Below are positions 5,437 to 36,535 of a stretch of 36,871 bases of DNA, piece by piece (positions within the stretch are counted from its first letter, which is position 1; every line of letters begins with the position of its first letter). The position numbers were made by a program, and so were the translations under genes. The notes under the pieces are model-generated. The model saw only the letters and a program-made list of their open reading frames with translations, had not been told where the DNA came from and did not search any database. The DNA comes from Candidatus Zhuqueibacterota bacterium (GTDB taxonomy: Bacteria > Zhuqueibacterota > QNDG01 > JABMRT01), in assembly GCA_013202295.1 (NCBI GenBank), contig JABMRT010000008.1, positions 1 through 36,871 on the forward strand. Direction: 5' to 3'.

Positions 5437-5470
5437 ACACTAACTTCGCAAGGAAACAAAAGCTATTAAC

Positions 5471-6300: not shown

Positions 6301-6368
6301 CTTGTTGTCAATTTAACTGGATCGTTTTATAATATGAAAGGACAAAAAGAAAAACTATAAGTGAGCAA

Positions 6369-6506: not shown

Positions 6507-6526
6507 ACTACTTATGGAGGCATTTA

Positions 6527-7432: not shown

Positions 7433-7447
7433 TGAAGGATAACTGTC

Positions 7448-8401: not shown

Positions 8402-8427
8402 TAAAAATTAGGCGTTATAAGCGAATT

Positions 8428-9720: not shown

Positions 9721-9780
9721 TTCAACTCGGTTATTAAATCGTGAATACTGAGTGTAAAAACCCAAATGAAAGGAAATTTT

Positions 9781-11847
9781 ATGAATACAACATATCACAA
9801 ATATTTCGTAGGGCTATTTTGTCTGATCGTGTTGTTCGTGTTATCATGCGCCGTTAGTCAAAATGGCGACTTATCCGTAAAAGGAAAAAATATCCAGATT
9901 AAGTTTAATGAGCAGTTGCAGAGTAAAATTGTGGCGAAATTTGACAATCGTGAAGTCGAACTAGGTGATTTTAATGATTCAGAGTATATTGCAATATCTG
10001 GAAAAACCGTAACGGATATCCCATTTGTAAAAAAAGCGACTCGTAGAATTAAAGATGAAATTGGCTCGGGTAAAGAAACAAATTTTGTTGGGGAAAATGA
10101 CACGCTAAAAAAGGAAATTGCAATTACCATCTATAAAAATTTTCCAACAATGGCTGTATTTCAGGTGACATACACCAATAAGAGTGAAAGCGATCTTTTG
10201 GTCGAATCATGGACGAACAATAACTATACGATTTCTGCAAAATCTGATAGCAGTGAAGACGTTCCGTTCTGGTCATTCAATGGTGGTTCTTACACGACCA
10301 GACCGGATTGGATCCTTCCCATCAAAGAGGGGTTTGAACAACAAAATTATATGGGAATGAACCATACAGATTACGGCGGCGGAACACCGGTAAGTGATGT
10401 TTGGCACAGAGAAGCAGGTCTTGCAGTTGGCCATTTGGAAACTGTTGCAAAACTGGTTTCACTTCCAATTACAATGCCTACTGCTGATGAAGCAAATGTA
10501 GCAGTTACTTTTGATATCAATAAAACGTTGAAACCAGGTGAAAGTGTTACTACATTTAAAACATTTGTCTCTGTCCATACTGGCGATAATTTCTCTACGC
10601 TTTCTGAATATAGCCGGATGATGGATTTGCTAGGCATAAAAATGCCAGATTATCCTGAAACAAGCTATGAACCAATCTGGTGCGCCTGGGGATATGAACG
10701 AAATTTTAAAACCGAACAGATTTATGGCGCGCTCCCAAAAGCAAAAGAATTGGGTTTCGAATGGGCTGTATTGGATGATGGATTTCAGACTGGCGAAGGT
10801 GACTGGACTAGTTTGATTAAAAGCAAATTTCCCAAGGGTGAGGAGTCAATGAAAGAATTTGTTGACACAATTCACGAACAAGGGATGAAAGCAAAGTTGT
10901 GGTGGGCTCCAATGGCTGTCGATCCAGGAACAGACTTGATAAAAGAACATCCTGAATATTTACTTTTAAATGAAGATGGCAGCACACAGGATATTGAGTG
11001 GTGGGATTCCTACTATCTGTGTCCGGCAGATCCAAATGTACAGAAATATACAAAAGATTTAGTAGTAAAATTTATGAAAGACTGGGGCTACGATGGATTG
11101 AAAATAGACGGACAACATCTGAATGGCGCTCCGCCATGTTATAATCCCGCACATAACCATAAACGACCGGAAGAATCTGTAGAAGGTGTTGCTGAATTTT
11201 TTAAAATTATTTATGAGACTGCCCGGAGCATTAATCCAGACGCCGTTGTCGAAATTTGTCCCTGTGGTGCTACCTATGCATTTCATACGCTGCCGTATAA
11301 TAATCAACCTGTTGCATCCGATCCTATGAGTAACTGGCAGATCCGCTTAAAGGGAAAGACCTTTAAAGCACTCATGGGCCCGCAGGTCCCCTATTATGGT
11401 GATCATGTGGAACACTCTGCCAGCAAAGACGATTTTGCAATCACTGTAGGTATTGGCGGTGTGATCGGTACAAAATTTACCTGGCCGGTTGGGTCAGGGC
11501 CGAGACCAAGGACTGATTTGACACCAGAAAAAGAAGCCCACTTTAAAAAATGGGTTGATATCTATAATGAGAAGATGCTGCCTAAAGGCAATTATCGGGG
11601 TGATTTGTATGATATAGGATTTGATAGACCCGAAGCCCACGCCAATCAAAAAGAAGATAAAATGTACTATGCTTTTTATGCAGATAATTTTGATGGCACT
11701 TTAGAATTAAGAGGATTGGATAAGAAAAAATATTCCATCACTGACTATGTTGCTGATAAAGATCTGGGACAAGTTGAAGGTCCTGATGCATTATTAAAAG
11801 TTTCCTTTGAAAATAATTTACTTATCGAATTGTCGCCTATTCAATAA
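9781..11847 (+). CDS. Lipoprotein alpha-galactosidase-like enzyme, GH36-related (clan GH-D), copy 1
   Basis: The protein has 688 residues with a lipoprotein signal (LFVLSCAVSQ, Cys about residue 24). A beta-sandwich N-terminal domain precedes a TIM barrel and a small beta C-terminal domain, the GH36 layout. The barrel keeps the substrate-binding pair Asp332-Asp333 (LDDG), the nucleophile Asp443 in LKID with Lys441 two residues before it, and the acid/base Asp514 in ASDP. It also carries PPCYNPAHNH after the nucleophile and EICPCG before the acid/base, in place of the usual GH36 Cys-Ser-Gly-Gly motif. Of the three copies in the window this is the most canonical, so alpha-galactosidase activity is most likely here. 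The start at 9781 follows AAAGGAAA; 9766 would add five residues. It ends the permease-gatZ operon. Confidence 0.85.
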   Translation: MNTTYHKYFVGLFCLIVLFVLSCAVSQNGDLSVKGKNIQIKFNEQLQSKIVAKFDNREVELGDFNDSEYIAISGKTVTDIPFVKKATRRIKDEIGSGKETNFVGENDTLKKEIAITIYKNFPTMAVFQVTYTNKSESDLLVESWTNNNYTISAKSDSSEDVPFWSFNGGSYTTRPDWILPIKEGFEQQNYMGMNHTDYGGGTPVSDVWHREAGLAVGHLETVAKLVSLPITMPTADEANVAVTFDINKTLKPGESVTTFKTFVSVHTGDNFSTLSEYSRMMDLLGIKMPDYPETSYEPIWCAWGYERNFKTEQIYGALPKAKELGFEWAVLDDGFQTGEGDWTSLIKSKFPKGEESMKEFVDTIHEQGMKAKLWWAPMAVDPGTDLIKEHPEYLLLNEDGSTQDIEWWDSYYLCPADPNVQKYTKDLVVKFMKDWGYDGLKIDGQHLNGAPPCYNPAHNHKRPEESVEGVAEFFKIIYETARSINPDAVVEICPCGATYAFHTLPYNNQPVASDPMSNWQIRLKGKTFKALMGPQVPYYGDHVEHSASKDDFAITVGIGGVIGTKFTWPVGSGPRPRTDLTPEKEAHFKKWVDIYNEKMLPKGNYRGDLYDIGFDRPEAHANQKEDKMYYAFYADNFDGTLELRGLDKKKYSITDYVADKDLGQVEGPDALLKVSFENNLLIELSPIQ

Positions 11848-11896
11848 ATAGTGGTTTGTATACAAAGGGCTAAAATGTTAATAGATAGAACTTTTA

Positions 11897-12536: not shown

Positions 12537-15500
12537 ATGAAAAAACAATGGTTTAGTAAAAGAGTTACAATTTTATTTGTATCTATGCTTTTTGTTTTTC
12601 TGTGCAGTTCTATTATTACTGCAGGAACAACAGGGAAAATTGCAGGTAAGGTGATAGATGTTGCAACTGGAGACGCTTTGCCGGGAACAAATATTATTGT
12701 AGTGGGAACAAATTTGGGAGCTGCCTCTGATGATGAGGGTGATTTTTATGTTCTCAATATCCAGCCTGGAGTCTATTCTGTAAAAGCGACTATGATGGGT
12801 TACACGATACAAATCCAAACCGATGTCCTGGTCAATATTGACAGAACAACTCCAGTAGATTTTAGTCTTGAAACAACAACAATCGAGGGTGAGGTAGTTA
12901 CTATTATTGCGGGCAGGGACGTTATTCACAGGGACATTTCTTCCAGCCAAGTTATTTCTGATGTTACTGATATTGTGCAAGTTCCTATGGTAACAAATAT
13001 TGAAGATTTTATCAGTCTGCAAGGGGGTATCGAAGGTGATATGATCCGTGGTGGTTCGATTGATCAGACTGGTTTTATGCTCGATGGCCTCATGATGGTG
13101 GACAATCGGTCAAACACACCGATGATGTCCGTTAATCTAAGCTCTGTTCAGGAAGTTTCGATTATCAAGGGAGGATTTAACGCTGAATACGATAATGTAC
13201 GTTCAGGATTAGTTAATGTTGTCACAAAAGAAGGTGACGTAGAAAAATATAGTGGATCCATTGATTTTCAAAGGATTCCGGCTAATCTTAAACATAGTGG
13301 TGCGTCACTTTATAATCCGAGCAACTATTATTTACGACCTTACCTTGATCCCGAAGTCTGCTTTGAAGGCACAGCAGTGGGTGGTTGGTCGCAAGAAATG
13401 CAAGATCAATATCCCAGTTTCCTTGGATGGGATAATTTTTCAGCAGTAATGGCTGGCCAGGGTATTAACATCACTCCAACAGAAGCACGTGAATTATTCA
13501 TGTATCAACATCAAGTAGAAGGCGCTGATGCGGTTGGCGGAAAAGTTGGTAAATATGGTGATCAACCAGATTTCAATTTTGATGCTGGTTTTGGCGGCCC
13601 TGTTCCATTGATTGGTGAATATTTGGGAGATTTAACATTTTTTACATCCTATCGGTTAAACAAGGAAATGTTTGGTTTGCCAACAAGTAGAGATTATTTT
13701 TCTGAAGATAATTTTTTAATGAAATTAACTTCTCGAATTACGCCAAGTATGAAGTTGACACTTGAAGGCACATACGGTGAAACTCATACTGTGGCCAGTG
13801 TTGTAGATAATTTCCAGAATCTTGAAGGTGATTTCCGTGCCGGCAGTGATTATGGACGTGTGAATTATGTCCCAGGTGGAAGCGATATTTTTGATACCAA
13901 TCTCGGTTTAAATCCTGAAAATATTTATTCCCATCGAGGTGCTGCCAATTTATATTGGCCAAGTTCATTAAGTCCGTTTGATATTTATCGTTCGATGCAG
14001 GGAATTTCATTCGATCATGTTTTGAGTCCCAGTACTTTCTATAATGTTCGAATTTCCCATATTCGTGTTAAAAATGTTTGTAGTGGACCCGATGCATGGC
14101 GGAATCCCGCAACCGTTAAATCTTTTGGTGATATTGCTGTAGATGAGCAACCCTTTGGATTTTGGTGGGAAGGCGGCCCTCAAATAATGGCTGGCGACGG
14201 GATGTTGATCGCGGCCATTGGTGCTGGCGCCAGAGATTATTCTGAAGTAAACACGCTTAACATTAAGTTCGATCTCACAAGTCAGGTCAATAAATATAAT
14301 CAAATTAAAACAGGTTTTGTCTTTAATTATGATGATATGAACACCCATATGGAAAAAGTCAGTCAGTATGCCCCCGGTGACAGCTGGGTGAATAAATGGC
14401 GACAATTTCCATATCGAATCGGCGCTTATGCCCAGGATAAATTAGAGTTCGAAGGGCTTATTGCTAATATAGGAATGCGGTTGGATTATATGCAGCCAAA
14501 TACAGACTGGTATGATGTAGATCGTTATTCTGAAGAACTGAGCAAACAAAATAAAGACCAATTAACCACTGATGCGGCATCGAGCGAAGCTAAAAGTCAT
14601 TTAAAAATAAGCCCACGCCTTGGAATTTCGCATCCTATCGGCGATAAAGCCAAACTTTATTTTAATTATGGACATTTTTATTCAATGGCTCCCGCGTTTG
14701 ATTTATATCAAATCGATTATGGTCTGGCTGCAGATGGTATCACATTTTTAGGAAATCCGTCAGCGGATTTGCCAAAAACGGTTTCCTATGAACTGGGTTT
14801 TGAATATGATATCGCTGATATGTATCTTGTTCATGTTTCAGGATATTATAAAGATGTAACCGATGAAACGGGACAAATTGCTTATGAAAATATCAGTGGT
14901 AGCGTTTCTTATACCACAATTGAAAATAACCAATTCGCTGATATCCGTGGATTTGAAATTCGTCTTGAAAAACGTTATGGGACCTGGTTCACAGGCTGGC
15001 TTAATTACAATTACATGGTTGCGGTTGATGGTCGTTTAGGAAGAGAAACGTATTATCAGGATCGGGCACGTCAAGTTCGAGAAGGATTATATAATCCTTA
15101 TTTCGAGACTCCTTTGGCGCAACCTTATGCTCGAGCTAATTTGTCTTTGCATAGTCCAAAGAAATTTGGTCCTTCCGTATTGGGTCAAAATGTTTTTGGA
15201 AATATAAATGTCACTTCTATTCTTACATGGAAAAAGGGCGATTATGAATCGGTGGCCGACTTAAAAACACAAACGATAAGCACCGAAGATGATATCGCCC
15301 AATGGCGTGATGAATATAATGTCGATCTGCGGATTAGTAAAACTGTCGATCTTGGCACGATGAGTGGGTTGCTCTATCTCGATGTTCATAATCTGTTTAA
15401 TTCTAAATTTTTGCGTGATAATGGATTTGCCAGCGACGCTGACCGACGTGATTATCTCAGATCGTTACATTTGCCTGAATATGCCGGCGATGAATATCAA

Positions 15501-15632
15501 AGCGCTGGGTTGACAGCAGGTAATGACAAAATTGGCGATGTTGACAAAGACTACATCAATATGCCAAACCGTGCTTTCCTAACCTATTTAGATCCGAGAG
15601 TTATAGTGATGGGTTTAAAATTTAATTTCTAA
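12537..15632 (+). CDS. SusC-like TonB-dependent outer-membrane receptor
   Basis: A 1031-residue outer-membrane protein. It has a signal peptide to about residue 29, a carboxypeptidase-regulatory-like beta domain (about 31-115, GKIAGKVIDVATGDALPGTN), a TonB plug domain (about 125-235, with MIRGGSIDQTGFMLDG), and a long beta-barrel ending in the aromatic residue typical of outer-membrane barrels (MGLKFNF). Such receptors take up glycans or other large ligands with energy from TonB. A strong AAGGAGG site lies nine bases before ATG 12537. No SusD-type lipoprotein follows; instead come a FlgD-tailed secreted protein, a PorV-like protein and an IPT/propeller lipoprotein. The ligand may be the galactosidic glycan handled by the flanking enzymes. 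Confidence 0.9.
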   Translation: MKKQWFSKRVTILFVSMLFVFLCSSIITAGTTGKIAGKVIDVATGDALPGTNIIVVGTNLGAASDDEGDFYVLNIQPGVYSVKATMMGYTIQIQTDVLVNIDRTTPVDFSLETTTIEGEVVTIIAGRDVIHRDISSSQVISDVTDIVQVPMVTNIEDFISLQGGIEGDMIRGGSIDQTGFMLDGLMMVDNRSNTPMMSVNLSSVQEVSIIKGGFNAEYDNVRSGLVNVVTKEGDVEKYSGSIDFQRIPANLKHSGASLYNPSNYYLRPYLDPEVCFEGTAVGGWSQEMQDQYPSFLGWDNFSAVMAGQGINITPTEARELFMYQHQVEGADAVGGKVGKYGDQPDFNFDAGFGGPVPLIGEYLGDLTFFTSYRLNKEMFGLPTSRDYFSEDNFLMKLTSRITPSMKLTLEGTYGETHTVASVVDNFQNLEGDFRAGSDYGRVNYVPGGSDIFDTNLGLNPENIYSHRGAANLYWPSSLSPFDIYRSMQGISFDHVLSPSTFYNVRISHIRVKNVCSGPDAWRNPATVKSFGDIAVDEQPFGFWWEGGPQIMAGDGMLIAAIGAGARDYSEVNTLNIKFDLTSQVNKYNQIKTGFVFNYDDMNTHMEKVSQYAPGDSWVNKWRQFPYRIGAYAQDKLEFEGLIANIGMRLDYMQPNTDWYDVDRYSEELSKQNKDQLTTDAASSEAKSHLKISPRLGISHPIGDKAKLYFNYGHFYSMAPAFDLYQIDYGLAADGITFLGNPSADLPKTVSYELGFEYDIADMYLVHVSGYYKDVTDETGQIAYENISGSVSYTTIENNQFADIRGFEIRLEKRYGTWFTGWLNYNYMVAVDGRLGRETYYQDRARQVREGLYNPYFETPLAQPYARANLSLHSPKKFGPSVLGQNVFGNINVTSILTWKKGDYESVADLKTQTISTEDDIAQWRDEYNVDLRISKTVDLGTMSGLLYLDVHNLFNSKFLRDNGFASDADRRDYLRSLHLPEYAGDEYQSAGLTAGNDKIGDVDKDYINMPNRAFLTYLDPRVIVMGLKFNF

Positions 15633-15657
15633 GTAACAAGTAAAAGGGAGTACAATA

Positions 15658-17766
15658 ATGAAAAAATATTCATTTATAGTTAGCTTCTGTCTTCTATTCA
15701 TTATCCTTGGTATGAATTCATCTCAAGCGGGTGTTTATAAATGGGTAAAAGTCGGAAATTTTCAAACAAAAATTGTTGATTCCGGTGATCAAGGTGAATC
15801 ATCCGGAGAAGGCACTTTTCACTATTATTACTACGATAAATTTGAACAAGCCGGTACTGACCATTCAGGATGGATGCTCGGAACCAGAGATTGGACCGAT
15901 GAAAACGGCGCGGTACATACGGTTAAAATATCCGGAGCAGGGCATGGAACGGCTGATGAAACACGCAATACCATTCCAATACCTGACGAAAATGGAAATA
16001 CCATCAATCGCTATGTCAGATATAAGCTTCCGGAAGTAGAGGTAGATGGCCTGGTCATTAGCGAACCGTTCCCACAAACGGCTGACGCTGTTGATCCGAC
16101 TAAAATACCAGGTACCGCTGATATAATGATTGAATCAACCGTGAATACATCCATGGGGCTGACCATTCATCAGAAAGTGTTGGCTTGGAGTCAGAAAAAT
16201 CATGATGATTATATCATCTGGGACTGGACATTCACCAATACCGGGAATGTTGATTTGGATCCTGAAAGTGAACTTCCCAACCAGACATTGCATGATGTTT
16301 ATTTTACCCGCGCAAATAATTTTTACGCAGGAAGTAATTCTGGAGTATGGCACTCTGCATATGGAGAATCTGAGGGTGACAGCTTGAGAATATCATATGC
16401 CTATCCGGCAGCTTATCCTGACGCAGAGCGTGATGATTTTGGCGGCCCAGATTTTGATAGTGGTTTCTTGGGTATGCCATGGTACATCGGCGATGCGATG
16501 CTTCATATCGACAAATCAACGAGTGACGAGTCAGATGATCTTGCTCAACCCCATTGGACTGCCGCTAATACAGCTGAATTACTCTATATTAAAAATGAAG
16601 CAAATATTAACACGCTGCAGCAACATACGCAACTCTATGATGTCATGCAGAATGGTTTTAGTGAGATGCCTTTCATGACAGGGACATATCCAGGGACGCA
16701 TCACAATTCACGCATGGATGACATGGGAATTGAAGATGACGTAAGCTATCCCGAAGACTTTGGTTGGTGGAACTGGAGAGCTTGCTCTTATACAGGCACA
16801 GGCCCATTTACCGTAGCGCCGGGAGAGTCATTTCGGATTGTCTGGGCAACCGTGTACGGCTCAATCTCACCTGAAAAAGGCTGGGAAGTCGGGCGAGCCT
16901 GGCTAGATGAAGAAGCAACATGGGACGGTGAAAACAATCTACCTGAGGTGCATGAATACTTCGGACTTTATGATACTGATAGTGATTATGCAAAAGATTG
17001 TTGGGTTGCTACAGGAAAAGATTCTTTGTTCGCTAATGCTTGGGCAGCGCAATGGGCTGTTGAAAATGATTATAATGTTCCTATTCCGCCTCCAGCACCA
17101 TCAATTACGGTTCAATCATTACCTGACGGTGTAAAGTTAAGCTGGTATTATGATTCAACCGTGGATGATTCCGATGTTGCTGGTTATCGCGTTTATCGGG
17201 CTGTGGGTAGTACGGACACAACGTTTTTCCCGATTTATGAATGTGGAGACGGTACTGCAAATCCATTAGCAAATACATATACGGATGATAGTGCTCAACG
17301 TGGGGAACCTTATTTCTATTATGTCGCTGCATTTGATCAAGCGGCGGATAATGCGCCAGGTGTAAACGGTGTCAGTGAAAGTCTTGAAAGCGGGAAATAT
17401 TTAAACCGCACTACTGCAGCTGCTTATCTCACGCGGCCTGCGGGAACTTCCCTCTCTCAGATACGCGTTGTACCGAATCCTTTTAGTGTTTCTGCCCGTC
17501 ACAAACAATTTACAGGTGATGATAAAAATAAAATTATGTTTTATGATGTGCCGGGTGTTTGTACTATTAGAATATACACAGAAAGCGGTGACCTTGTTAA
17601 GACAATTGAACATACGGACCAATCGGGTGATGAAGCATTCGGGAATGTCCCCCTTGACTTTACAACAACCGAAACAGGACAAATTGTCGTTAGCGGGCTT
17701 TACATCGCAAATATTTCGACTCCATCCGGTGAAAGTATAAATGTTAAGTTTATAGTCATTCAATAG
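15658..17766 (+). CDS. Secreted protein with fibronectin-type and FlgD-like C-terminal domains
   Basis: A 702-residue exported protein with a signal peptide (FIVSFCLLFIILGMNSSQAG). Residues about 30-470 are beta-rich, dense in Trp, Tyr and Asp, and I do not recognise them as a named family. Residues about 480-575 look like a fibronectin type III domain (VQSLPDGVKLSWYYDS, then VAGYRVYRA and YFYYVAAFD). From residue about 600, VVPNPFS starts a FlgD-like/type IX tail that ends in the SGLYIANI and FIVIQ strands. It begins 25 bases after the TonB receptor behind a GGGAG site, so the two form one operon. Its place next to a SusC-like receptor suggests it may be the surface substrate-binding partner that replaces SusD. 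That role is inferred. Confidence 0.75.
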   Translation: MKKYSFIVSFCLLFIILGMNSSQAGVYKWVKVGNFQTKIVDSGDQGESSGEGTFHYYYYDKFEQAGTDHSGWMLGTRDWTDENGAVHTVKISGAGHGTADETRNTIPIPDENGNTINRYVRYKLPEVEVDGLVISEPFPQTADAVDPTKIPGTADIMIESTVNTSMGLTIHQKVLAWSQKNHDDYIIWDWTFTNTGNVDLDPESELPNQTLHDVYFTRANNFYAGSNSGVWHSAYGESEGDSLRISYAYPAAYPDAERDDFGGPDFDSGFLGMPWYIGDAMLHIDKSTSDESDDLAQPHWTAANTAELLYIKNEANINTLQQHTQLYDVMQNGFSEMPFMTGTYPGTHHNSRMDDMGIEDDVSYPEDFGWWNWRACSYTGTGPFTVAPGESFRIVWATVYGSISPEKGWEVGRAWLDEEATWDGENNLPEVHEYFGLYDTDSDYAKDCWVATGKDSLFANAWAAQWAVENDYNVPIPPPAPSITVQSLPDGVKLSWYYDSTVDDSDVAGYRVYRAVGSTDTTFFPIYECGDGTANPLANTYTDDSAQRGEPYFYYVAAFDQAADNAPGVNGVSESLESGKYLNRTTAAAYLTRPAGTSLSQIRVVPNPFSVSARHKQFTGDDKNKIMFYDVPGVCTIRIYTESGDLVKTIEHTDQSGDEAFGNVPLDFTTTETGQIVVSGLYIANISTPSGESINVKFIVIQ

Positions 17767-17835
17767 AAACTCTATGACAATTAACTTCTACTTTATTAGG
17801 CTAATTGTTAAAACCTAATTAGGGAGTATTAGAAA

Positions 17836-18822
17836 ATGAAAAAAATAACAATAATATTAATAATAGCGTGTATCGCTATCATTAGCATGCCGGCTCATTC
17901 TGCCATGAAAAAAACGGCGCAATCCGGTCTGCAAATATTGAAAATCGATGTTGGCGCTCGTCCGGCCGCGATGGGGGGCGCTTACTCGATGGTTGGTAAC
18001 GATGCGATTGCCATGTTTTATAATCCGGCTGGAATTGCAGAAATACAATCCGATGTAGACTTTTTTGCTACTCAGACACAATGGATCGCTGATATCACCT
18101 ACATTGCCGCAGGAGTTGTGAAAAATCTTGGCAATTGGGGGAATGTGGGCCTCAGCGCTCTTACGGCGGATTATGGTGATATTATTGGAACCGAAGTTGA
18201 TCCAAGTTCAACGTCAGGTTATATTGAAACTGGTAACTTGGATGTAAGTGCTTATGTTGTTGGATTGACTTATGCCAGAAGTTTAACCAATAAATTCAAA
18301 ATTGGTGGACAGGTAAAATATGCCTATCAACATCTCGGAGAAAATGTGCTGTCGGCAGAAGAAACCGTTCAGAATGATGTCAGCGGATTGGCATTTGATT
18401 TTGGAACGATCTTTTACCCCGGGTATAAGAGTCTGCAATTTGGAATGTCTATTCGAAATTTTTCTCAACAGTTCAAATTTGTTGATAAAGCATTTCAATT
18501 ACCCCTTACATTTTCAATTGGCGCCGCAATCAATGTGATGGATTTCGTGAATGAGGATGGAGAAAATGCATTACTATTGGCTGTAGATGCTCTTCATCCT
18601 AATGATTATACAGAGCGTTTGAGCATCGGCCTTGAATATTCATTTCAGAGTATGTTCTTTATTCGCGGTGGCTACAAAACAAACCATGATATTGAAGGCC
18701 TTTCTGCAGGATTTGGCATTGAGCATAGTATTGGTGGTTTGGGTCTCAGGATAGGTTATGCATATTCAGCTATTGAAGTGTTTGATCCGGTAAGCCGAAT
18801 CTCCTTTGGAATTAAATTTTAA
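17836..18822 (+). CDS. PorV/PorQ-family outer-membrane protein
   Basis: A 328-residue protein with a signal peptide (IIACIAIISMPAHS), then GLQILKIDVGARPAAMGGAY and GNDAIAMFYNPAGIA. This start is characteristic of PorV/PorQ and UPF0164-like outer-membrane beta-barrels. The rest is a series of amphipathic strands (FFIRGGYKTN) ending in ISFGIKF. In type IX secretion PorV is the outer-membrane shuttle that receives folded cargo, while in other FCB bacteria copies sit next to single secreted proteins. The preceding gene has a type IX-like tail, so a dedicated partner of that protein is plausible. It sits 69 bases downstream of it, behind a GGGAG site. Confidence 0.85.
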   Translation: MKKITIILIIACIAIISMPAHSAMKKTAQSGLQILKIDVGARPAAMGGAYSMVGNDAIAMFYNPAGIAEIQSDVDFFATQTQWIADITYIAAGVVKNLGNWGNVGLSALTADYGDIIGTEVDPSSTSGYIETGNLDVSAYVVGLTYARSLTNKFKIGGQVKYAYQHLGENVLSAEETVQNDVSGLAFDFGTIFYPGYKSLQFGMSIRNFSQQFKFVDKAFQLPLTFSIGAAINVMDFVNEDGENALLLAVDALHPNDYTERLSIGLEYSFQSMFFIRGGYKTNHDIEGLSAGFGIEHSIGGLGLRIGYAYSAIEVFDPVSRISFGIKF

Positions 18823-18939
18823 TTTGGGAGAAAAAAAATCGTGCCTGTTTTAAATCTGCATAGTAAAGGTCTAATACAATGGCCGATCATAGATAGGCGC
18901 CAAACATCTTTAAGAAAAGAGAATCAAAGGAGTAACACT

Positions 18940-20154
18940 ATGAAATTAAACTATATAAAAGCTACGTTAATATTCTCTACGTGCATCCTTATGCTTTTGT
19001 TGATGGGTTGCGCTGAGGATGTTAACAATTTTTTAACAAACCTTGATGATATAGGAACGCCAACAATTACTGAATTTGAATCTGATTCTGATTTTGGAGG
19101 AGCTGAAGCAGTTATAACCGGTACTGGTTTTAGTACTGATCCTTCCAAGAATCTGATTACTTTTGGGCCACACGATAATTTCGGTTATAAAAGTATCAGA
19201 CCCTCTTCAGCGACTGCAACAAGCTTAACTTTCACCAAGCCCGTTATCAGTGCGGTGGACGACAACATATTCACTGAAGTCAGAGTTTCCCGTCTGGATG
19301 ATAGTGATCCGGTGAGAAGCAATGCACTCGATGTTACTTTTGCACCTCTAATTTCAACTTTTGCAAGCGGTCTTGTGCGTCCGAGAGCCATTGCTTTTGA
19401 TGCAGCTGGAGATGGTTATATTGCTGAGTATGATGTGGATAATCTGCGTGTCGTAAAAGTCACAGCAGCTGGAAATGAAGATTATTCAATCTTTCCGGCT
19501 ACGAATCTCAGGGGAGAAATCGAATTTGACAGCCAGGGTACTCTCTGGGTGGCAACAGCCTGGCAAGCGCTATATGCGATTGCTCCAGGAGGTGGTGATC
19601 CTGTAGATACTGGTTGGACCGGCGATGATGCAGGACGATACTTTAAGAGTTTATCTTTTGACGCCGATGATAATCTTTATGGATGCCTTGAAGGGTGTTC
19701 TCGAATGGCTCCGGATGGCACAGAAACAGCGCTTGATCTTAATGTAGAAAATTTCTGGCCTGGTTTTGTTACAACAGTTGCCGATGGTTATCTCTATTGG
19801 TATACGAAGTCAGAAGGAGAGGGTGTGGAAGGTTTTTATAAAGCTCCCCTTACAGCTGATGGTATCGGAGCAATCGAAACAATATTAGAGCTTGAACCTG
19901 GTAACTATTGGCCCAATTCGATTGTTGTAGATACTGATGGTAATATCTATGGTACAGGCGGCGGTTGGGATAACGCCAATCCTTCATCAATATGGAAAAT
20001 TGCACCTGATGGAACTGAATCAGTCGTCTATGAATTAGGGATTGATTCTTGCTGGGGCCTAGAGTTCCATGGAGAATATATTTATGTAGCAACACAGTAT
20101 GAAGGCACAGTTCTTAAGTGTTATATGAATGGTGCTGTAGGCGCCGGGCGTTAA
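18940..20154 (+). CDS. IPT/TIG-domain lipoprotein with NHL-like beta-propeller
   Basis: A 404-residue lipoprotein: the signal segment ends in LLLMGCAED, with the Cys as lipid anchor. Residues about 35-110 form an IPT/TIG immunoglobulin-like domain (AVITGTGFS). Residues about 120-400 form a propeller with NHL/SMP-30-type strands (RPRAIAFDAAGDGYIAEY, NSIVVDTDGNIYG, DDNLYG). Such propellers bind ligands or act as sugar lactonases, but catalytic residues cannot be assigned with confidence. The start is set at 18940 because an AAAGGAG site precedes it and the lipoprotein signal begins there; a GTG at 18841 would place 33 non-signal residues ahead. It closes the TonB-FlgD-PorV set and is followed by a strong hairpin. 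IPT/NHL lipoproteins are often beside SusC-like receptors in these bacteria. Confidence 0.82.
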   Translation: MKLNYIKATLIFSTCILMLLLMGCAEDVNNFLTNLDDIGTPTITEFESDSDFGGAEAVITGTGFSTDPSKNLITFGPHDNFGYKSIRPSSATATSLTFTKPVISAVDDNIFTEVRVSRLDDSDPVRSNALDVTFAPLISTFASGLVRPRAIAFDAAGDGYIAEYDVDNLRVVKVTAAGNEDYSIFPATNLRGEIEFDSQGTLWVATAWQALYAIAPGGGDPVDTGWTGDDAGRYFKSLSFDADDNLYGCLEGCSRMAPDGTETALDLNVENFWPGFVTTVADGYLYWYTKSEGEGVEGFYKAPLTADGIGAIETILELEPGNYWPNSIVVDTDGNIYGTGGGWDNANPSSIWKIAPDGTESVVYELGIDSCWGLEFHGEYIYVATQYEGTVLKCYMNGAVGAGR

Positions 20155-20166
20155 ATAAAAGTTAGA

Positions 20167-20205
20167 ATATCCCCATCACATAGCATTGCTAAGTGATGGG
20201 GATAT
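20167..20205 (+). terminator. Strong hairpin ending the TonB-PorV-lipoprotein set
   Basis: The arms ATATCCCCATCAC and GTGATGGGGATAT pair perfectly over 13 bases. After an A-A mismatch, TAGC and GCTA continue the stem around the loop ATT. It starts 13 bases after the lipoprotein stop. An A/T-rich stretch follows rather than a pure T-run. Confidence 0.65.
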
Positions 20206-20319
20206 ATATAATATGGTTGATTTAGTCCATTCTTAATGAGCCAGCCTTCGTATTTGCCAAGGTTACCTTTTGTTAATTACCGTTCGTTAGCGAAATTACA
20301 AAAAAGAGAATTAAAAAGA

Positions 20320-21372
20320 ATGAGAATATTTTCTTCCATTGTTATTTTACAAATATTATTAATTTCAGCATTTACAAATTTGGCATTCACCCAAAGCAAG
20401 GGCGGCCAATGGCAGTTTGAGAATAATGGGAATGATACCGCTGAATGGGATACTACTGATAACTCTGGTGTTTTGGAGTCAGGCGCGTTTTATGTAAATT
20501 CAAATCCTTCACAAGAGGGTTCCTATTATTTAAACCTTAACAATTCATATTCTCATTTAAAAATTAATGATAGTGACGATATTGATTTTAAAAATGAAAA
20601 TATCGGGATTTCGCTATGGATAAATACGAAAGAAGCTGGTGGAAGCAACTACTTCATTTTAAATAAAGGGATAGATGCAGGAGGCCAGAAAACATCAAAT
20701 TATGCATTGAGGATCGGAAAATCCAAGAATCTGGAACTACTTATTCGAGATTCAAACAACAAAGCACAAACTGCGGTCTCGTCATTCATAATTGAAAAAA
20801 ATGTATGGACTTTTATCGCCGTATATTATGATTATGATCTTAAAAAGGTCTACTTTTGGAATCAACCGACTCAAAATCCTGTTGATACACTTGATTACGA
20901 TCCCGATTTTTCAGATAATGCTGATCCTCTCACGATAGGTGGGCGATATACTTCCGATCCAAGTGCGCCGGTATCGTACCATTTTAAAGGTTATATTGAT
21001 GATGTCAGAATTAGCGGGCGAGTTGAGGATATCCTTTCTCCTGCAACGCATGTCGCTCTGCAAAAGGACTATATAAATCCACCTATGTCGATTAAGATGG
21101 GAATTTACCCCAATCCATCCAGTATTTCAGAAAATAACGGAAATGTCTCATGTGCGATAGAATTGAACAATATAAATAATCCATCAATTTCTATTTTTAA
21201 TGTATTGGGACAGCGCGTTATGAAACGAACATTGTCAGGATTTGACAAGCACCAAATCGTTCAGTGGAATAGAAAGGACAGTCAAGGAAATATACTGCCG
21301 ACAGGAACCTATTTTGTAAGGATAAATAATGCAGGACAAAAGTTAACAAAAAGGTTAATGATCATTCAATAG
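20320..21372 (+). CDS. Secreted LamG-like (concanavalin fold) protein with type IX sorting domain
   Basis: A 350-residue exported protein. It has a signal peptide (SIVILQILLISAFTNLAF), a LamG/concanavalin-like jelly roll at about 35-250 (IGISLWINTKEAGGSN, VWTFIAVYYDY, YHFKGYIDDVRISGR), and a C-terminal type IX sorting domain (MGIYPNPSS, SISIFNVLGQRVM, LPTGTYFVRI, RLMIIQ). LamG domains usually bind carbohydrate, so a surface glycan-binding role is likely. The start ATG at 20320 is chosen because the signal peptide begins there; 20236 would add 28 residues unlike a signal. It stands between a strong upstream hairpin and the amidohydrolase gene 25 bases downstream, so it likely begins a new transcript. 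Confidence 0.82.
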   Translation: MRIFSSIVILQILLISAFTNLAFTQSKGGQWQFENNGNDTAEWDTTDNSGVLESGAFYVNSNPSQEGSYYLNLNNSYSHLKINDSDDIDFKNENIGISLWINTKEAGGSNYFILNKGIDAGGQKTSNYALRIGKSKNLELLIRDSNNKAQTAVSSFIIEKNVWTFIAVYYDYDLKKVYFWNQPTQNPVDTLDYDPDFSDNADPLTIGGRYTSDPSAPVSYHFKGYIDDVRISGRVEDILSPATHVALQKDYINPPMSIKMGIYPNPSSISENNGNVSCAIELNNINNPSISIFNVLGQRVMKRTLSGFDKHQIVQWNRKDSQGNILPTGTYFVRINNAGQKLTKRLMIIQ

Positions 21373-21397
21373 TAAAGAATAAATACTGGAGTCAGTG

Positions 21398-22492
21398 ATG
21401 AATCGATTAAAACAAATTACAATACTCTGTTTCAGTTTATTAACTGTTACGAGCCATTTTGTCAACGCACAAACGTCTCCCGAAACATTGTATCTTAAAA
21501 ATTATAAACCAAAGTCCATTTATAATGTGCCCACAACATTGGTTGAGAAAGCCAGATTCTCAGTGATTGATATGCATTCTCATGCATACGCTGAAACAAC
21601 CGAAGAAATCGCCCAATGGGTAAAGAACATGGATGAAGTCGGTATTGAGAAATCAATTATTTTATCCAAAGCCACGGGTGTTATGTTCGACTCAATTTAT
21701 GCAGAATACGCAAAGTATCCGGGGCGATTTGAGGTATGGTGCGGATTCGATTATACGGATTATGATAAACCAGGATTTGGTCCAGCTGCCGTGGCAGAAT
21801 TGGAACGTTGTGTAAAAGTCGGGGCAAAGGGTATCGGCGAATTGGGTGATAAGGGAAAGGGTTTATTTTACTGTAATCCCAAAGCTTATGGCATGCATCT
21901 GGATGATCCACGCATGGATCCGCTTCTTGAAAAATGCGCTGAACTGGGGCTGTCGATCAATGTTCATATCGCCGAACCCATCTGGATGTACGAGCTCATG
22001 GATTCCACCAATGATGGTTTGATGAACGCATATGATTGGCGTCTGGACAATCAGCCGGATATCGTGGATCATGCGGGGATGATTGATATTCTGGAACGGG
22101 CTGTTAAAAGGCATTCACAGACCATTTTCATTGCCTGTCATTTTGCCAATTGCTCATACGATTTGAACAAACTTGGCGATTTGCTGGACAAGTATCCCAA
22201 CCTCTATGCGGACATTTCCGCCCGGTATGCGGAAACAGCGCCTATTCCCCGCTTCGTATCCCAATTCTACAGCAGATATCAGGACCGGTTGCTGTATGGC
22301 ACTGATATGGGTTTTGATGTGAACATGTATCGTCTTACCTTCCGAATTTTGGAGAGTGAGGATGAACATTTTTATGCAACTGACCAATTCGGGTATCACT
22401 GGTCGTTAAACGGATTTGGATTGAATGAAGAGATACTGAAAAAAGTGTACAGGGACAATGCTTTAAAAGTGATGCGGCAGAATGCCAAATGA
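21398..22492 (+). CDS. Exported amidohydrolase-2-family metal hydrolase
   Basis: A 364-residue protein of the Amidohydro_2 TIM-barrel family with an N-terminal signal peptide (TILCFSLLTVTSHFVNAQ). Metal-site residues are visible as DMHSHA (His-x-His), a GIGELGDKGKG strand, the His of NVHIAEP, the His of IACHFANCS, and Asp in LYGTDMGFD. Family members hydrolyse or decarboxylate small organic acids and lactones. Export to the periplasm is unusual for the family. ATG 21398 follows GGAG; a GTG at 21395 is adjacent. It lies at the head of the exported hydrolase region, 25 bases after the LamG-like gene. It is not AgaA-like: sequence and location differ from cytoplasmic N-acetylgalactosamine-6-phosphate deacetylase. 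Confidence 0.85.
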   Translation: MNRLKQITILCFSLLTVTSHFVNAQTSPETLYLKNYKPKSIYNVPTTLVEKARFSVIDMHSHAYAETTEEIAQWVKNMDEVGIEKSIILSKATGVMFDSIYAEYAKYPGRFEVWCGFDYTDYDKPGFGPAAVAELERCVKVGAKGIGELGDKGKGLFYCNPKAYGMHLDDPRMDPLLEKCAELGLSINVHIAEPIWMYELMDSTNDGLMNAYDWRLDNQPDIVDHAGMIDILERAVKRHSQTIFIACHFANCSYDLNKLGDLLDKYPNLYADISARYAETAPIPRFVSQFYSRYQDRLLYGTDMGFDVNMYRLTFRILESEDEHFYATDQFGYHWSLNGFGLNEEILKKVYRDNALKVMRQNAK

Positions 22493-22744: not shown

Positions 22745-23584
22745 ATGCGCTTAAAACTTCTGATTATTTTATTCTGCTTCCTTTCGATCTCCAATAAATT
22801 ACAGGGACAAACAGAGACCATTAAATTCGATCATTTTTCCGACCAGGAAAGGGCCCCTCAATCATACATTAATGTTATCCTTCAGGATCAAACCGGATTT
22901 ATGTGGTTCGGGACAGCAACCGGGCTGGTCAGATATAATGCATATGATTTCACCTATTTTACTCATGAACCGGATAACATGAATAGTCTGCATTCTAACA
23001 ATATTTTATCCCTGTACGCGGACAAGAATAAGAAAAAATTGTGGATCGGTCTGCAAAATGGTGTTCTAAATCAGTTGGATCTCCATCAGGAAATATTCTC
23101 AAGTCATCAGATTCCCCAAATAGAAGACTCCCCCGCAAGTGTTTCCAATATTAATGCCATATTAGAAAGCCGAAATGGAAATCTTTGGATTGGAACCGAT
23201 GAAAGCGGATTATATCAGTTTCAAATAGATAACAAACAATTTATGCGATATGAATCCGGGACAACAACCATTATCCCAATCCAAGTGACTGGCATTAATT
23301 CCCTTTTTGAGGATTCTGAAGGTATTCTGTGGATTGCATCTTTTACCGGTCTTTACCGATACGATCCCGAAAGGGAAGCCTTTGATCAGTATTTGATTGA
23401 TCCGGGTTATCCTTTACCGCGTGGCGTATGCCAGGCGATGATTATGCTCCCAAAAGGTGTAGACTGGAAAGGATTAAGACTTAAAGCGGAATTAGAGGTA
23501 AAAGGTAAAACTTATCCAGTGCAATGGTCATGTGATGAAAAAATCCAGGCTGATGGTTCGATTACCCTACAGCCGGGTGTATAG
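22745..23584 (+). CDS. Chimeric protein: sensor propeller fragment fused to the tail of a TIM-barrel protein
   Basis: A 279-residue open frame made of two unrelated parts. Residues 1-218 have a signal peptide (LLIILFCFLSISNKLQGQ) and about four to five Reg_prop blades (DQTGFMWFGTATGLVRYN, NGNLWIGTDESGLYQF, EGILWIASFTGLYRYDPE), the start of a hybrid two-component sensor of the HTCS type. Residues 219-279 instead match the last 60 residues of the protein at 34982-36535 (DPGYPLP-GV-QAMI-LPKGVDWKGL, then KAELEVKG-TYPV). The remaining blades, the Y_Y_Y domain, the membrane segment and the kinase domains are missing. The join falls at a shared Asp-Pro codon pair. It follows an AAGGAGG site. It is probably a deletion scar and non-functional as a sensor, though the frame is intact. 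Confidence 0.8.
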   Translation: MRLKLLIILFCFLSISNKLQGQTETIKFDHFSDQERAPQSYINVILQDQTGFMWFGTATGLVRYNAYDFTYFTHEPDNMNSLHSNNILSLYADKNKKKLWIGLQNGVLNQLDLHQEIFSSHQIPQIEDSPASVSNINAILESRNGNLWIGTDESGLYQFQIDNKQFMRYESGTTTIIPIQVTGINSLFEDSEGILWIASFTGLYRYDPEREAFDQYLIDPGYPLPRGVCQAMIMLPKGVDWKGLRLKAELEVKGKTYPVQWSCDEKIQADGSITLQPGV

Positions 23585-23618: not shown

Positions 23619-23655
23619 AATCCCGATTTATCGGGATTCGTCTCTCTCTTATTTA
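23619..23655 (+). terminator. Rho-independent terminator after the chimeric gene
   Basis: AATCCCGAT and ATCGGGATT form a perfect nine-base stem, followed by a T/C-rich stretch (CGTCTCTCTCTTATTT). It ends the chimeric gene and may have come in with the fused tail. Nothing else gene-like is visible in 23656-23961, apart from a ribosome binding site (AAGGA) before 23962. Confidence 0.7.
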
Positions 23656-23961: not shown

Positions 23962-26406
23962 ATGTATAAACACTACTCCATCGTTTTACAAATTATGATT
24001 GCGACGATACTTACCCTAGGTCTGATATCACAGAGTCTGGCTGAAAATATTGTCCTGGAAAACAAGTTCGGAGTAAAAATCGTGATTCCAAAAACTGATA
24101 AGGGCTATGCATTTGGAACAGTTTATCTGAACGAAAGTCCCGTAGAAGAATCTCTACTAAAGGGAATGATTTTATTTAAAGATATTGAGAAAAATCAAGA
24201 TTTTTGGTTTCATGCTTCAGAAATAAAGAAATTGAGTAATTTGAAATGGAAATTTTCAGGAAGGGGAAATATTGATGGAGCAACAATTGCCTTCAATCTG
24301 GTAATTGAACTTCCGGAGAATAATAAGGCAGTTAATCTAGACTATGATTTTAAAGTGGACAAAGATCTTCAAAATCTTCAGGCTTGTTTATTGTTCAATT
24401 CTGATTTTGGATATGACTGGAAATGTCATATGTATCCCTGGGCCGCAGATGCCAGATTTATCCAACGGGATCCCTTAAGCTGGATGGGTATTCCCTCTCT
24501 TATATTATATAGGGACGATATGTCAATGGGAATGCTGTGGGGAATTGATCCAGCTTCCGATTATTTGAATCCAACAAGCTGGACAAAAGACTTTGGAATA
24601 TATTTCATTAATCGCCAGGTGCCGGCTCAATACAGAGTTGGTGGGAAAGAGTTAAAAGCAGGAATAAACTATCATTGCCCTATGCAGCTTATTCTTTCAG
24701 ACAATCAGGATCCTGATTTACTGATCACGGAATTGGTTAAATCATGGATAAAACATAACAATTTTCAGGTTGAAGCGCTACATGTTCGCTCAAATGATGA
24801 GGCATTGAAACTGTTTATGCATGGACGAAAAAATACAAGTATGTGGTACCCCGGTCAGGGATATCGTCTTGAAATGGGAGATCCATCCAGTGCATTTATT
24901 TATATCGGTGAGCAAGGTCTGTCTGCCTTATTCGAGTATATGCTTTATGAATTAACCAGTGATACAGAATGGAGAAAACGTTCATTCGAACAAATGGACT
25001 TTGTTTTAAACGGACAAAATATCAATCCGCATGATCCTCTTTATGGATATATTCATACAGCCTTTAGTTTGGTTGACTACGGCCCAGCGGGAAAAGGATT
25101 TAATAGTTATGATCGTGGCTCAAATCCCGGTTACAAAATTGATATGAATATCTATCTGGGTAGATATATGTTGCACATGTGGGAGCGTGTAAAAATCCAT
25201 GAGGGAATTGATCGTAAAGACTGGTATGATGCAGCAATTAAAGCAATCGATTGGGCGGTTAATCAACAGAACAGTGACGGAGGATTACCGCAAAAAATAA
25301 GTTTTACCCCTCTTGACGTCCAAGAGGGTAATGATTGGATGGGTACTGGTCAACCGGAATTTGTAAAATACAAAGGACCAGGGAAAAAATCAATTTCTGC
25401 GACATCAACCCGCACGCTTCCGGCACTTTGGCATATCTACAAAATTACCGGTAATGAAAAATATAAACAGATCATGGAAGAAGTAGAAGCTTATACACTT
25501 TCCAGCTTTCAAAATAAATATTTATTTATCAGTCATCATCCGGATCTGCCTCCGCATACATTAGAAGAAGGGGGTATCTGGGGCATCTGTGAATATTGGC
25601 TCTATAGATTTGAAGAAACCAATAATAAAAACTATCTCAAACATGCGGTGGCAAATGCCCATTTGTCCCTGACATGGAAATGTCCCAAACAGCTCTCCTG
25701 GGTAGAAAATCCAACGCAACTAGGATCTGCTGAACAGCAGTATTTTCTCCAATATTCCGTATACTGCTATCAAAATCGACAGGTACAATGTCTAAAAAAA
25801 CTATATAAATACACCGGGAACTCACTATATGAACAATTGGCAGAACGAATAACTCAGAATATCTTTTGGACACAAATAGCAGAGGGTGATTTGATGGGAG
25901 CAACCCATGAACGAATTGCAGATCCCTGGCTTGCACGTAGTGATGGTGATGGCCCGGGTTATAATACGATGGGTACGATTTATATGAGTGAACAATCTTT
26001 AGATCTCCTACTTCAAACTGTTGAGATGTACCGAACGGGGAAATTTATATGTAAAGATAATATTATCATCAATAAATCTTATCCCGATGGTCTTGTATAT
26101 TACAGTGAAGATAACAGGGGTAAGGAAATGACCAAATTACAGATTTTCCCTTCTAAAGGATATGTAAATTCAATGGTTAAATCTTGGAACGCTAATGAAA
26201 AGATTTGGATGTTGAGTAATGCGTCTGAAAAGAATTTAACTATTGATCATAAATTAGGTTCATTAGAACATGGAATCACCTACAAAGCACTTATCAATGG
26301 TTATGAAATAGGAATCTATCAAGCCAATCAGGATGGAGAAATCAAATTTAGTCATACTAGCAATTTTACAAAGGAGATCGAGGTTAAAATTATTAGTTCA
26401 AAATAA
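23962..26406 (+). CDS. Large exported protein, probably an alpha/alpha-toroid glycan hydrolase (unrecognised family)
   Basis: An 814-residue protein with a signal peptide (TILTLGLISQSLA). Residues 30-260 are beta-rich (beta-sandwich-like). Residues about 270-690 are helix-rich with aromatic-lined turns (HGRKNTSMWYPGQGYRLEMG, DAAIKAIDWAVNQQNSDGGL, SISATSTRTLPALWHIY, EEGGIWGICEYWLYRF), as expected for a six-hairpin toroid such as those of heparinase-, GH88/105- or GH127-type proteins. Residues from about 700 are again beta. I cannot name the family or assign catalytic residues; acidic and His residues near 345-400 are candidates. Its neighbours are exported glycan-acting proteins, so a hydrolase or lyase is inferred. 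It stands alone between a terminator and a repeat-rich gap. Confidence 0.6.
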   Translation: MYKHYSIVLQIMIATILTLGLISQSLAENIVLENKFGVKIVIPKTDKGYAFGTVYLNESPVEESLLKGMILFKDIEKNQDFWFHASEIKKLSNLKWKFSGRGNIDGATIAFNLVIELPENNKAVNLDYDFKVDKDLQNLQACLLFNSDFGYDWKCHMYPWAADARFIQRDPLSWMGIPSLILYRDDMSMGMLWGIDPASDYLNPTSWTKDFGIYFINRQVPAQYRVGGKELKAGINYHCPMQLILSDNQDPDLLITELVKSWIKHNNFQVEALHVRSNDEALKLFMHGRKNTSMWYPGQGYRLEMGDPSSAFIYIGEQGLSALFEYMLYELTSDTEWRKRSFEQMDFVLNGQNINPHDPLYGYIHTAFSLVDYGPAGKGFNSYDRGSNPGYKIDMNIYLGRYMLHMWERVKIHEGIDRKDWYDAAIKAIDWAVNQQNSDGGLPQKISFTPLDVQEGNDWMGTGQPEFVKYKGPGKKSISATSTRTLPALWHIYKITGNEKYKQIMEEVEAYTLSSFQNKYLFISHHPDLPPHTLEEGGIWGICEYWLYRFEETNNKNYLKHAVANAHLSLTWKCPKQLSWVENPTQLGSAEQQYFLQYSVYCYQNRQVQCLKKLYKYTGNSLYEQLAERITQNIFWTQIAEGDLMGATHERIADPWLARSDGDGPGYNTMGTIYMSEQSLDLLLQTVEMYRTGKFICKDNIIINKSYPDGLVYYSEDNRGKEMTKLQIFPSKGYVNSMVKSWNANEKIWMLSNASEKNLTIDHKLGSLEHGITYKALINGYEIGIYQANQDGEIKFSHTSNFTKEIEVKIISSK

Positions 26407-33521: not shown

Positions 33522-34859
33522 ATGAACGAAGAATTGAATCGAAGAAGCTTTATCCAAAAAAGTACGGCTGCCAGTTTAGCACTGGCTGTTGCACCAAACA
33601 TCGTTTTTGGTAATAAAGATGACCGTAAAGTGCGGCTCGGATTTATCGGTGTGGGGCTTCAAGGGACTGGTCTTCTCAAAATGTGTTTATCAATGGATGA
33701 TGTTGAAGTGAATGCAATTTGTGATATCGATAAAGCAGCAGCAGCCCGAGCCCAAAAACTGGTTGAAAAATCCGGACGAAAAAAACCGGCGCTTTACACG
33801 AAAGACGAAGAAGACTATAACAATTTGGTAGAGAGGGATGATTTGGATGGCGTTATAATAGCGACTCCCTGGGTGTGGCATACACCGATGGCCATTGCAA
33901 CAATGAAAGCCCAAAAATACTGCGCACCCGAAGTATGGGGCGCTTCGTCAATTGATGAAATTTGGCAGCTTGTTAAAACATCCGAAGAGACCGGCATGCC
34001 GTGTATGATGCTGGAAAATCATAATTATGATCGTGATAGTATGGCAATCCTGAACATGGTGCGAAAAGGATTGTTTGGTGAACTCATCCACTGCCAATGC
34101 GGTTATCAACATGATCTTCGGGACGTGAAATTCCGGCCCGGAGCAGAGTTTGGAGCCAAAGGTGAAAACGAAGCACGCTGGAGAACAGACCATTCTGTGA
34201 AACGTAATGGTGATCTTTATCCCACGCATGGTATCGGGCCGATCGCCAACTGCCTAGATATTGACCGGGGGAACCGATTTGTCACTCTGACTGCCACAGC
34301 AACAAAAGCACGGGGTCTGCATAATTATATTGTTGAAAAAGGCGGGCAAGATCATCCCAATGCCAAGGTTCAATTTGCTTTGGGTGATATAGTGACTACT
34401 GTGATTAAATGTGCCAATGGTGAAACTGTAATCATTAACCATGATACCAACCTGCCGCGTCCCTATTCAAATATGTATCGAGTTCAAGGTACCAAAGGAC
34501 TGTGGATGGAAGACAATATGTCTATTTATTTGGAGGGGACAAGCCCTGAACATTCATGGGAAGATTTTGAACCCTATATGAAAAAATATGAACATCCTTT
34601 GTGGAAAAATTTTATGAATGACGGTGTAAGAGGCGGACATGGCGGTGCTGGTTTTCTTAAAACACGTGCGTTTGTAGAAAGTGTAAAACGACAAATTCCG
34701 ACCCCTATTGATGTATATGACACAGCCTCGTGGGCTGTTATAACGCCTTTAACAGAAATGTCCATAGCACAGGGAAGCGAACCTATTGAATTTCCAGATT
34801 TTACAATGGGTAATTGGATGAGAAGAAAACCAATTTTCGGATTACATGGTGAATTTTAA
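33522..34859 (+). CDS. GH109-like NAD-dependent alpha-N-acetylgalactosaminidase
   Basis: A 445-residue Gfo/Idh/MocA-fold protein, about the length of characterised GH109 enzymes. It starts with a twin-arginine signal (NRRSFIQKST) and has a Rossmann domain (VRLGFIGVGLQGTG), then TPWVWHTPMAIATMKA. GH109 blocks are clear: YDRDSMAILNMVRKGLFGEL, ARWRTDHSVKRNGDLYPTHG (with Tyr233 and His236), KARGLHNYIVEKGGQ, HPNAKVQF and the GGHGG loop. GH109 removes alpha-linked N-acetylgalactosamine by an NAD-bound oxidation-elimination route. Tat export would carry the enzyme folded with its cofactor. Two usual loop residues after GGHGG are changed (Ala-Gly instead of Met-Asp). It has a strong AAGGAGG site and supports N-acetylgalactosamine as a substrate of the locus. 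Confidence 0.85.
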   Translation: MNEELNRRSFIQKSTAASLALAVAPNIVFGNKDDRKVRLGFIGVGLQGTGLLKMCLSMDDVEVNAICDIDKAAAARAQKLVEKSGRKKPALYTKDEEDYNNLVERDDLDGVIIATPWVWHTPMAIATMKAQKYCAPEVWGASSIDEIWQLVKTSEETGMPCMMLENHNYDRDSMAILNMVRKGLFGELIHCQCGYQHDLRDVKFRPGAEFGAKGENEARWRTDHSVKRNGDLYPTHGIGPIANCLDIDRGNRFVTLTATATKARGLHNYIVEKGGQDHPNAKVQFALGDIVTTVIKCANGETVIINHDTNLPRPYSNMYRVQGTKGLWMEDNMSIYLEGTSPEHSWEDFEPYMKKYEHPLWKNFMNDGVRGGHGGAGFLKTRAFVESVKRQIPTPIDVYDTASWAVITPLTEMSIAQGSEPIEFPDFTMGNWMRRKPIFGLHGEF

Positions 34860-34981: not shown

Positions 34982-36535
34982 ATGAAGCGAAGGATTTTTT
35001 TTAAAGTTGGTAGCGCTGCTGCAATTGGTGCCGGACTGACAGTTCAAAAAGGCCGTGCTTTTGTTCCATCTCATAATTGGGAGAAATATAACTTTGGCTC
35101 CGGTCCAGAAGTTAAAGACCGATTGTATCAGGGGCCATTTCCACAATATGCACCTGAAGAAGTTTTGCCGGGCAGTGAAGTGGTGATGGCAACAACACCT
35201 TCAAAAAATATTGTTCCCAATTATGGGATGGGGCTGGTTGCTTATGTTTCCGGCGATATTGGTCCGCCAAATATCAAAGGCGAGTCTTTAGAAAAGTCAA
35301 TTGAAGATCTGGTCAAACTTCCCTTTGTTCAAAAGATTTATATGCGTCCTGACTGGCGTCAAGTGCAGAAGAAACCGGGCCGATTGGATTTTTCTGATTA
35401 CTGGAAAATCGCATTTGATCTGGCAAAACAATATGGTAAACAGGTTGCATTTAGGGTCATGCTTGAAAATCCTGATGTCCCTTATCCGGGCATGCCTGGA
35501 TTTTTGATGGATAAAGTCCCATATGTCAAATTAAAAGGGGAATGGAAAGGCGATCCATCAGTGGCTCGTTATCAGAAAGTTCATAAAATGCCCCGATATG
35601 ATCATCCTGAGTATCAGGCGGCTTTTCGGGATTTGAATGCCATGCTGGCCGATGAATTCAATGGAAATCCTATGGTTGAATATATGGATACTTTTATGTA
35701 TGGATTTTGGGGCGAAGGGCATTCATGGCCCTTTGACGGTAATCCATTCCCGGATGATATAATCGCAGAGAAGACCTGGAAAAAGATGATGGAAGTTCAG
35801 CTTGAGTATTGGACGAAAACACCCCTGGTCACCAACACACAACCGGATTTCAGCAATGTTGGAAATTCAGAAATGCTGGACCGTTCAATTCGTACCAATA
35901 ATTGGCTGAGAACTGATACTATTTTTATTGAAAATGAGCAGATCGAAGCTTTGGCAAATCGACCGCCATGGATCGCCGCCATTAGTGAGGTGGGTATCAC
36001 ACCAGGAAATTCACACCGCCTTAAAGAGGTCGAGGGAATTACCCGAAATGAGAGCATTATTTATCATGTGATGGATATTGGCGCCAATTACTGGTCCGTG
36101 TGGAACTGGCATCATATTTCAGCAAAAAACATCATGAGCTATTATGAAAAATATCCTGATGCGATTGATGAAATTGCGCGGAGAATTGGTTATCGTGTTC
36201 GCCCCTCATGGATCTGGAGTTTTGAAAAGGATGGGCATCCAGGTCTTGTATTCGGTATGACGAATGATGGTATTGCAGGTGTACCTGGTGTGCTTCGGTT
36301 GACGGTTTTCAGTGATGATGGTAAGGTTCATGAAACCGGCTGTCTTGATCCCGGATACCCCTTACCACAAGGTGTTCGACAGGCCATGATCATATTACCT
36401 AAAGGCGTCGATTGGAAGGGTTTGAAAGTAAAAGCTGAGTTGGAAGTGAAGGGCGTTACATATCCTGTGAACTGGGCCTGTCATCAAAAGACCAATGCGG
36501 ATGGCAGTTTAACACTACGCCCCAATATGGGCTAA
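34982..36535 (+). CDS. Tat-exported TIM-barrel protein, putative clan GH-A-like hydrolase
   Basis: A 517-residue protein with a twin-arginine-type signal (KRRIFFKVGSAAAIGAG). Residues about 80-400 look like a TIM barrel of the retaining glycosidase type: YGMGLVAYVSGD, KIYMRPDWRQVQKKPG, DYWKIAFDLAKQYGKQVAFR, then FWGEGHSW with Glu245 and AISEVGIT with Glu336, spaced as expected for an acid/base and nucleophile pair. Residues about 400-456 are beta, and 456-517 form a small C-terminal module (DPGYPLPQG, PKGVDWKGL, ELEVKGVTYPV). That module is also found at the end of the chimeric protein at 22745-23584. I do not recognise a named GH family, and catalysis is an inference from the two Glu. It is the last gene before a terminator. 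Confidence 0.65.
   Translation: MKRRIFFKVGSAAAIGAGLTVQKGRAFVPSHNWEKYNFGSGPEVKDRLYQGPFPQYAPEEVLPGSEVVMATTPSKNIVPNYGMGLVAYVSGDIGPPNIKGESLEKSIEDLVKLPFVQKIYMRPDWRQVQKKPGRLDFSDYWKIAFDLAKQYGKQVAFRVMLENPDVPYPGMPGFLMDKVPYVKLKGEWKGDPSVARYQKVHKMPRYDHPEYQAAFRDLNAMLADEFNGNPMVEYMDTFMYGFWGEGHSWPFDGNPFPDDIIAEKTWKKMMEVQLEYWTKTPLVTNTQPDFSNVGNSEMLDRSIRTNNWLRTDTIFIENEQIEALANRPPWIAAISEVGITPGNSHRLKEVEGITRNESIIYHVMDIGANYWSVWNWHHISAKNIMSYYEKYPDAIDEIARRIGYRVRPSWIWSFEKDGHPGLVFGMTNDGIAGVPGVLRLTVFSDDGKVHETGCLDPGYPLPQGVRQAMIILPKGVDWKGLKVKAELEVKGVTYPVNWACHQKTNADGSLTLRPNMG

Follow-up and report, generated by a model that had tools for sequence, protein, structure and literature searches.

Hybrid two-component sensors with Reg_prop propellers are regulators of polysaccharide utilisation, according to the general background given in PMC3243724 and PMC11253607. 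The TIM-barrel hydrolases of clan GH-A, among them the GH35 beta-galactosidases, are the second group with which the present locus can be compared. Deletion-born fusion pseudogenes, the third, join two truncated parents in frame at a short common sequence, giving a fusion found in no relative; a literature search on deletion fusions found nothing specific. Within the 36,871-nucleotide stretch analysed here (the window), from the genome of an uncultured bacterium of candidate division KSB1, the open reading frame at 22745..23584 on the plus strand, designated P0001, combines the beginning of a propeller sensor with the end of a TIM-barrel protein. We consider it probable that P0001 is a recent scar of a microhomology-mediated deletion in a sugar-utilisation locus, with no functional product, and that the loss of the front of a hydrolase was tolerated through a second copy. 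P0001 does not differ in kind from deletion-born fusion pseudogenes and represents ordinary gene decay. It is unusual only in how clearly and completely synteny reveals where it came from.

A reading frame in two parts

P0001 encodes 279 amino acids and is open throughout, with no stop and no frameshift. Residues 1-218 (22745..23398, plus strand) are of sensor type, and from residue 219 the frame continues as the tail of a TIM-barrel family (23399..23581, plus strand). This two-part make-up, proposed in a first-pass annotation, is upheld by a Reg_prop match in the first part (Pfam, E 1.3e-20) and by an alignment of the tail to the protein encoded at 34982-36535, both far beyond chance. The first part consists of a signal peptide, judged by eye, and the first four Reg_prop blades of a hybrid two-component-type sensor, and shares 30-41% identity with the beginnings of propeller sensors in the same genome and phylum, most of which are 700-1400 residues long. 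Unlike those full sensors, P0001 exits the sensor after four blades, and the complete propeller, transmembrane segment, histidine kinase, receiver and DNA-binding part are all missing. A propeller fold needs about seven blades. A search of 82 genomes of the phylum found no orthologue of the sensor part, the best match reaching 41%. Among the matches to P0001 elsewhere in the assembly there was no orphan sensor remainder; a short propeller frame on contig C91 was considered for this role and rejected, because it starts with a signal peptide of its own and is a different protein.

The tail comprises 61 residues and aligns with the final 60 or so of the 517-residue protein encoded at 34982..36535 (plus strand) at 73-74% identity. 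A BLASTP comparison of P0001 with that protein, which extends over a longer local alignment, gives an E-value of 9e-30. The family's C-terminal motif, LDPGYP...LPKG..WKGL...ELEVKG...PV.WAC...DGSLTL, is retained in the tail. An AlphaFold model of the parent, built with 66 sequences (pLDDT 90), has a TIM barrel followed by a C-terminal beta-sandwich, and the join splits this sandwich midway, so that the strands before residue 455 are gone and only its second half remains. The barrel, with its invariant acidic residues (e.g. E245 and E336), is likewise absent from the chimera. In having a barrel, to which the beta-sandwich is added, the parent resembles the hydrolases of clan GH-A, and its fold is closest to that clan, with GH35 beta-galactosidases as the best Foldseek matches (best E about 3e-11). 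It differs from GH35 enzymes in sharing only about 10% identity and a TM-score of about 0.4 with them, and the tail itself differs from the whole clan in lacking the barrel. No family in Pfam or NCBIfam was matched by the parent.

A scan of genome contigs collected 79 loci of the TIM-barrel family from Acidobacteriota, Bacteroidota, KSB1 and others, a few of them cut by contig ends, broken, or with a longer open frame. In all 79 the tail sits on a TIM-barrel frame, usually of 505-610 amino acids, and in none is it fused to a propeller, so the two-part architecture of P0001 corresponds to no known protein family. A tree of the tail computed on 62 columns did not resolve the branching. Locus L136 holds six tandem paralogues of the family in a single Bacteroidales genome from goat abomasum.

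The join lies at 23399..23407 (plus strand). Successive propeller blades are linked by the motif F..Y..DP, and the TIM-barrel family has LDPGYP at the position of the join; the chimera holds both registers at once, as F-D-Q-Y-L-I-D-P-G-Y-P. Among 98 propeller blades of the same spacing, 43 have Asp-Pro at exactly that site, mostly encoded GATCC, so the earlier placement of the join at an Asp-Pro codon pair GATCC agrees with the registers of both parents. The parents share about 5-7 bp there, and such a short overlap is what microhomology-mediated deletion predicts. Downstream of the stop codon, a terminator had also been annotated. A perfect 8-bp hairpin, read from the sequence, is indeed present at 23619..23638 (plus strand), but what comes after its stem is a mixed C/T tract, and the list from a consensus terminator scan does not include it, leaving a weak terminator candidate.

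The tail in the place of an operon gene

Between the tail and the gene at 34982, third codon positions are 31% identical, that is, randomised, and pS is 0.89, while pN is 0.18 and dN about 0.21. Saturated third positions combined with a dN of about 0.2 indicate that the tail was under purifying selection and that, through most of its history, it formed the end of a functional copy distinct from 34982. On the same grounds, the tail as a decaying duplicate of 34982 is rejected for most of that history. Of the three changes that it shows at conserved columns, two (A45S and Q48E) also occur in the intact protein of L081, which again argues against such a duplicate. The divergence that the first-pass annotation had called clear is borne out (73% of amino acids and 31% of third positions identical), as is its derivation of the tail from a second paralogue that is otherwise absent. 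The genome retains only the tail and 34982, no further copy of the family being found in it, and among the matches to 34982 in the assembly there is no orphan TIM-barrel remainder.

Gene order shows where the lost copy belonged. Relatives belonging to several phyla have an operon with the gene order PorV-like, LamG, amidohydrolase, melibiase-like, TIM barrel. The last three genes occur in this order in KSB1 genomes G053, G036, G016 and G039 (with one further gene between in G053 and G036), in L131 and L148 of Neomarinimicrobiota, and in L081, which is labelled Firmicutes. The upstream part of the operon in the window (12537..21372, plus strand) encodes a TonB-dependent receptor-like protein, a 702-aa protein, a PorV-family protein, a 437-aa propeller-like protein and a LamG/T9SS-sorted protein, in the same order as in G036, G048 and G039. 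The amidohydrolase gene (Amidohydro_2; 21395..22492, plus strand) marks the syntenic place, and the chimera follows it directly. The melibiase-like gene, which in relatives follows the amidohydrolase and precedes the TIM barrel, is here upstream of the operon (9766..11847, plus strand). The tail thus stands where the operon had a TIM-barrel gene of its own, and is the remnant of that gene. By the same comparison, the intact gene at 34982 is a second copy; a GH57-like gene (32221) lies near it, an arrangement also seen in KSB1 genome G043. This use of synteny, which puts the lost copy at the end of a conserved operon, is new over the earlier reading. A search of two intergenic gaps for relics of other operon genes gave matches at chance level only.

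Other features of the window may be recorded here. The regions 2190-12370 and 33522-34859 encode an AgaS-like SIS protein, two PfkB kinases, a KbaZ/GatZ-like protein, a DeoR regulator and a GH109-like protein, which suggests that a locus for the use of galactosamine or N-acetylgalactosamine is linked to the TonB-receptor operon. The 814-aa protein encoded at 23962-26406 has no Pfam or NCBIfam family and a weak GH127 or pectate-lyase-like signal. At the contig end (36820-36871) there is a ten-base tandem repeat, TATAAATAGA.

Origin of the fusion

In the ancestral arrangement, the gene for a propeller sensor would have come after the amidohydrolase gene, with the terminal TIM-barrel hydrolase gene downstream of both. 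A single break, with rejoining at the short common sequence GATCC, would then have cost the sensor its remainder and the hydrolase roughly its first 455 codons, and the join would have fallen in frame by chance. For a sensor of typical length, the deleted DNA would amount to about 4 kb or more. The loss was probably tolerated through the intact hydrolase copy 11 kb downstream, and any protein made from the frame would be exported and unlikely to fold. Both parents are truncated and the syntenic place of one is occupied by the fusion, as in other deletion-fusion pseudogenes. Of the deletion first proposed for this frame, the in-frame fusion and the short homology both stand, but an adjacent intact sensor is found in no relative. 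The intact sensor and TIM-barrel paralogue that had been anticipated as neighbours in related genomes were sought in the relatives' operon loci and no such pair was found; the loci examined yielded no gene flagged as Reg_prop. That no relative has an intact sensor gene after its amidohydrolase and before its TIM barrel counts against a deletion scar, and for this reason we infer, rather than observe, the arrangement before the deletion.

The same absence makes insertion a live rival, since no relative has a sensor at the place of the chimera; here illegitimate recombination would have copied part of a sensor into the TIM-barrel gene of the operon in exchange for the front of that gene. This would take two joins, and a deletion only one. 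The sensor part, moreover, is preceded by a spacer of its own and has its own start codon and signal peptide, as a gene in its original place would, and the genome holds no second copy of the sensor DNA; we regard an insertion as unlikely. An assembly artefact, in which a metagenome contig combines two unrelated sequences and the gene does not exist, might be suspected from the fragmentation of the assembly (303 contigs) and from the uniqueness of the join among the genomes searched. However, an assembler k-mer is far longer than the few base pairs common to the parents, searches of the rest of the assembly, which is 95.65% complete, recovered neither missing half, and a random misjoin would not put the tail where relatives keep their TIM-barrel gene. 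These points make an artefact very unlikely.

The state of the frame bears on its age and on whether it has a function. The lack of any stop or frameshift counts against a long-dead scar. In simulations, a neutral frame of this length was still open in 14% of cases at 0.05 substitutions per site and in 3% at 0.1, so that either the event is recent or the frame has been selected; an open frame is also expected by chance if neutral divergence since the fusion is less than roughly 0.05-0.1 per site. The other outcome considered in the first-pass annotation was a newly born exported protein, which the operon would express and selection would maintain. It would account for the intact signal peptide and the open frame, and codon usage in both parts lies within the range of the neighbouring genes. 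Against this, both folds are incomplete, with four of seven blades joined to a beta-sandwich cut in half, which makes a stable fold of the chimera, and hence a new functional protein, unlikely; a single-sequence prediction gives a pLDDT of 39, which is weak evidence because it comes from one sequence. Since, in addition, the fusion occurs in no relative and chance alone can keep a young frame open, we find a selected new protein the hardest of these alternatives to credit. The deletion scar therefore remains our reading of P0001, and it offers a clean case of a carbohydrate-utilisation operon that has lost its last enzyme, with the lost gene named by synteny. For annotators it carries the warning that a scar can take the form of a frame that has both a good signal peptide and a Pfam match.

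Parallel losses in other KSB1 genomes

Two parallel losses of the TIM-barrel gene were found in the same phylum. In G043, on contig C71 (L159, about 8814-9059, minus strand), residues 1-42 of the TIM-barrel protein are joined to residues about 475-516 in a relic that has one stop and one frameshift and adjoins a melibiase-like gene; besides this relic, G043 keeps an intact copy that shares 80% identity with the protein at 34982. In G068, on contig C248 (L191, about 4440-4593), residues about 1-19 are joined in frame to about 484-515, placing a Tat-like leader (RRTFLK-type) straight onto the family's last 32 residues, upstream of a melibiase-like gene, and no other TIM-barrel copy was found in that genome. 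Together with P0001, these point to at least three losses of the gene by deletion among the phylum genomes examined, and ascertainment is part of the reason why the tail survives in each of them, as matches to the TIM-barrel protein or its tail served to find them. A more far-reaching view, that P0001 is either a young exported protein under selection or one of a series of recurrent scars that arise because KSB1 lineages repeatedly favour loss of the operon-terminal gene, seems to us quite unlikely. At a further locus (L161, G077:C212), a degenerate first-blade propeller fragment at about 16190-16548 lies 3' of an intact TIM-barrel gene and runs into the contig end.
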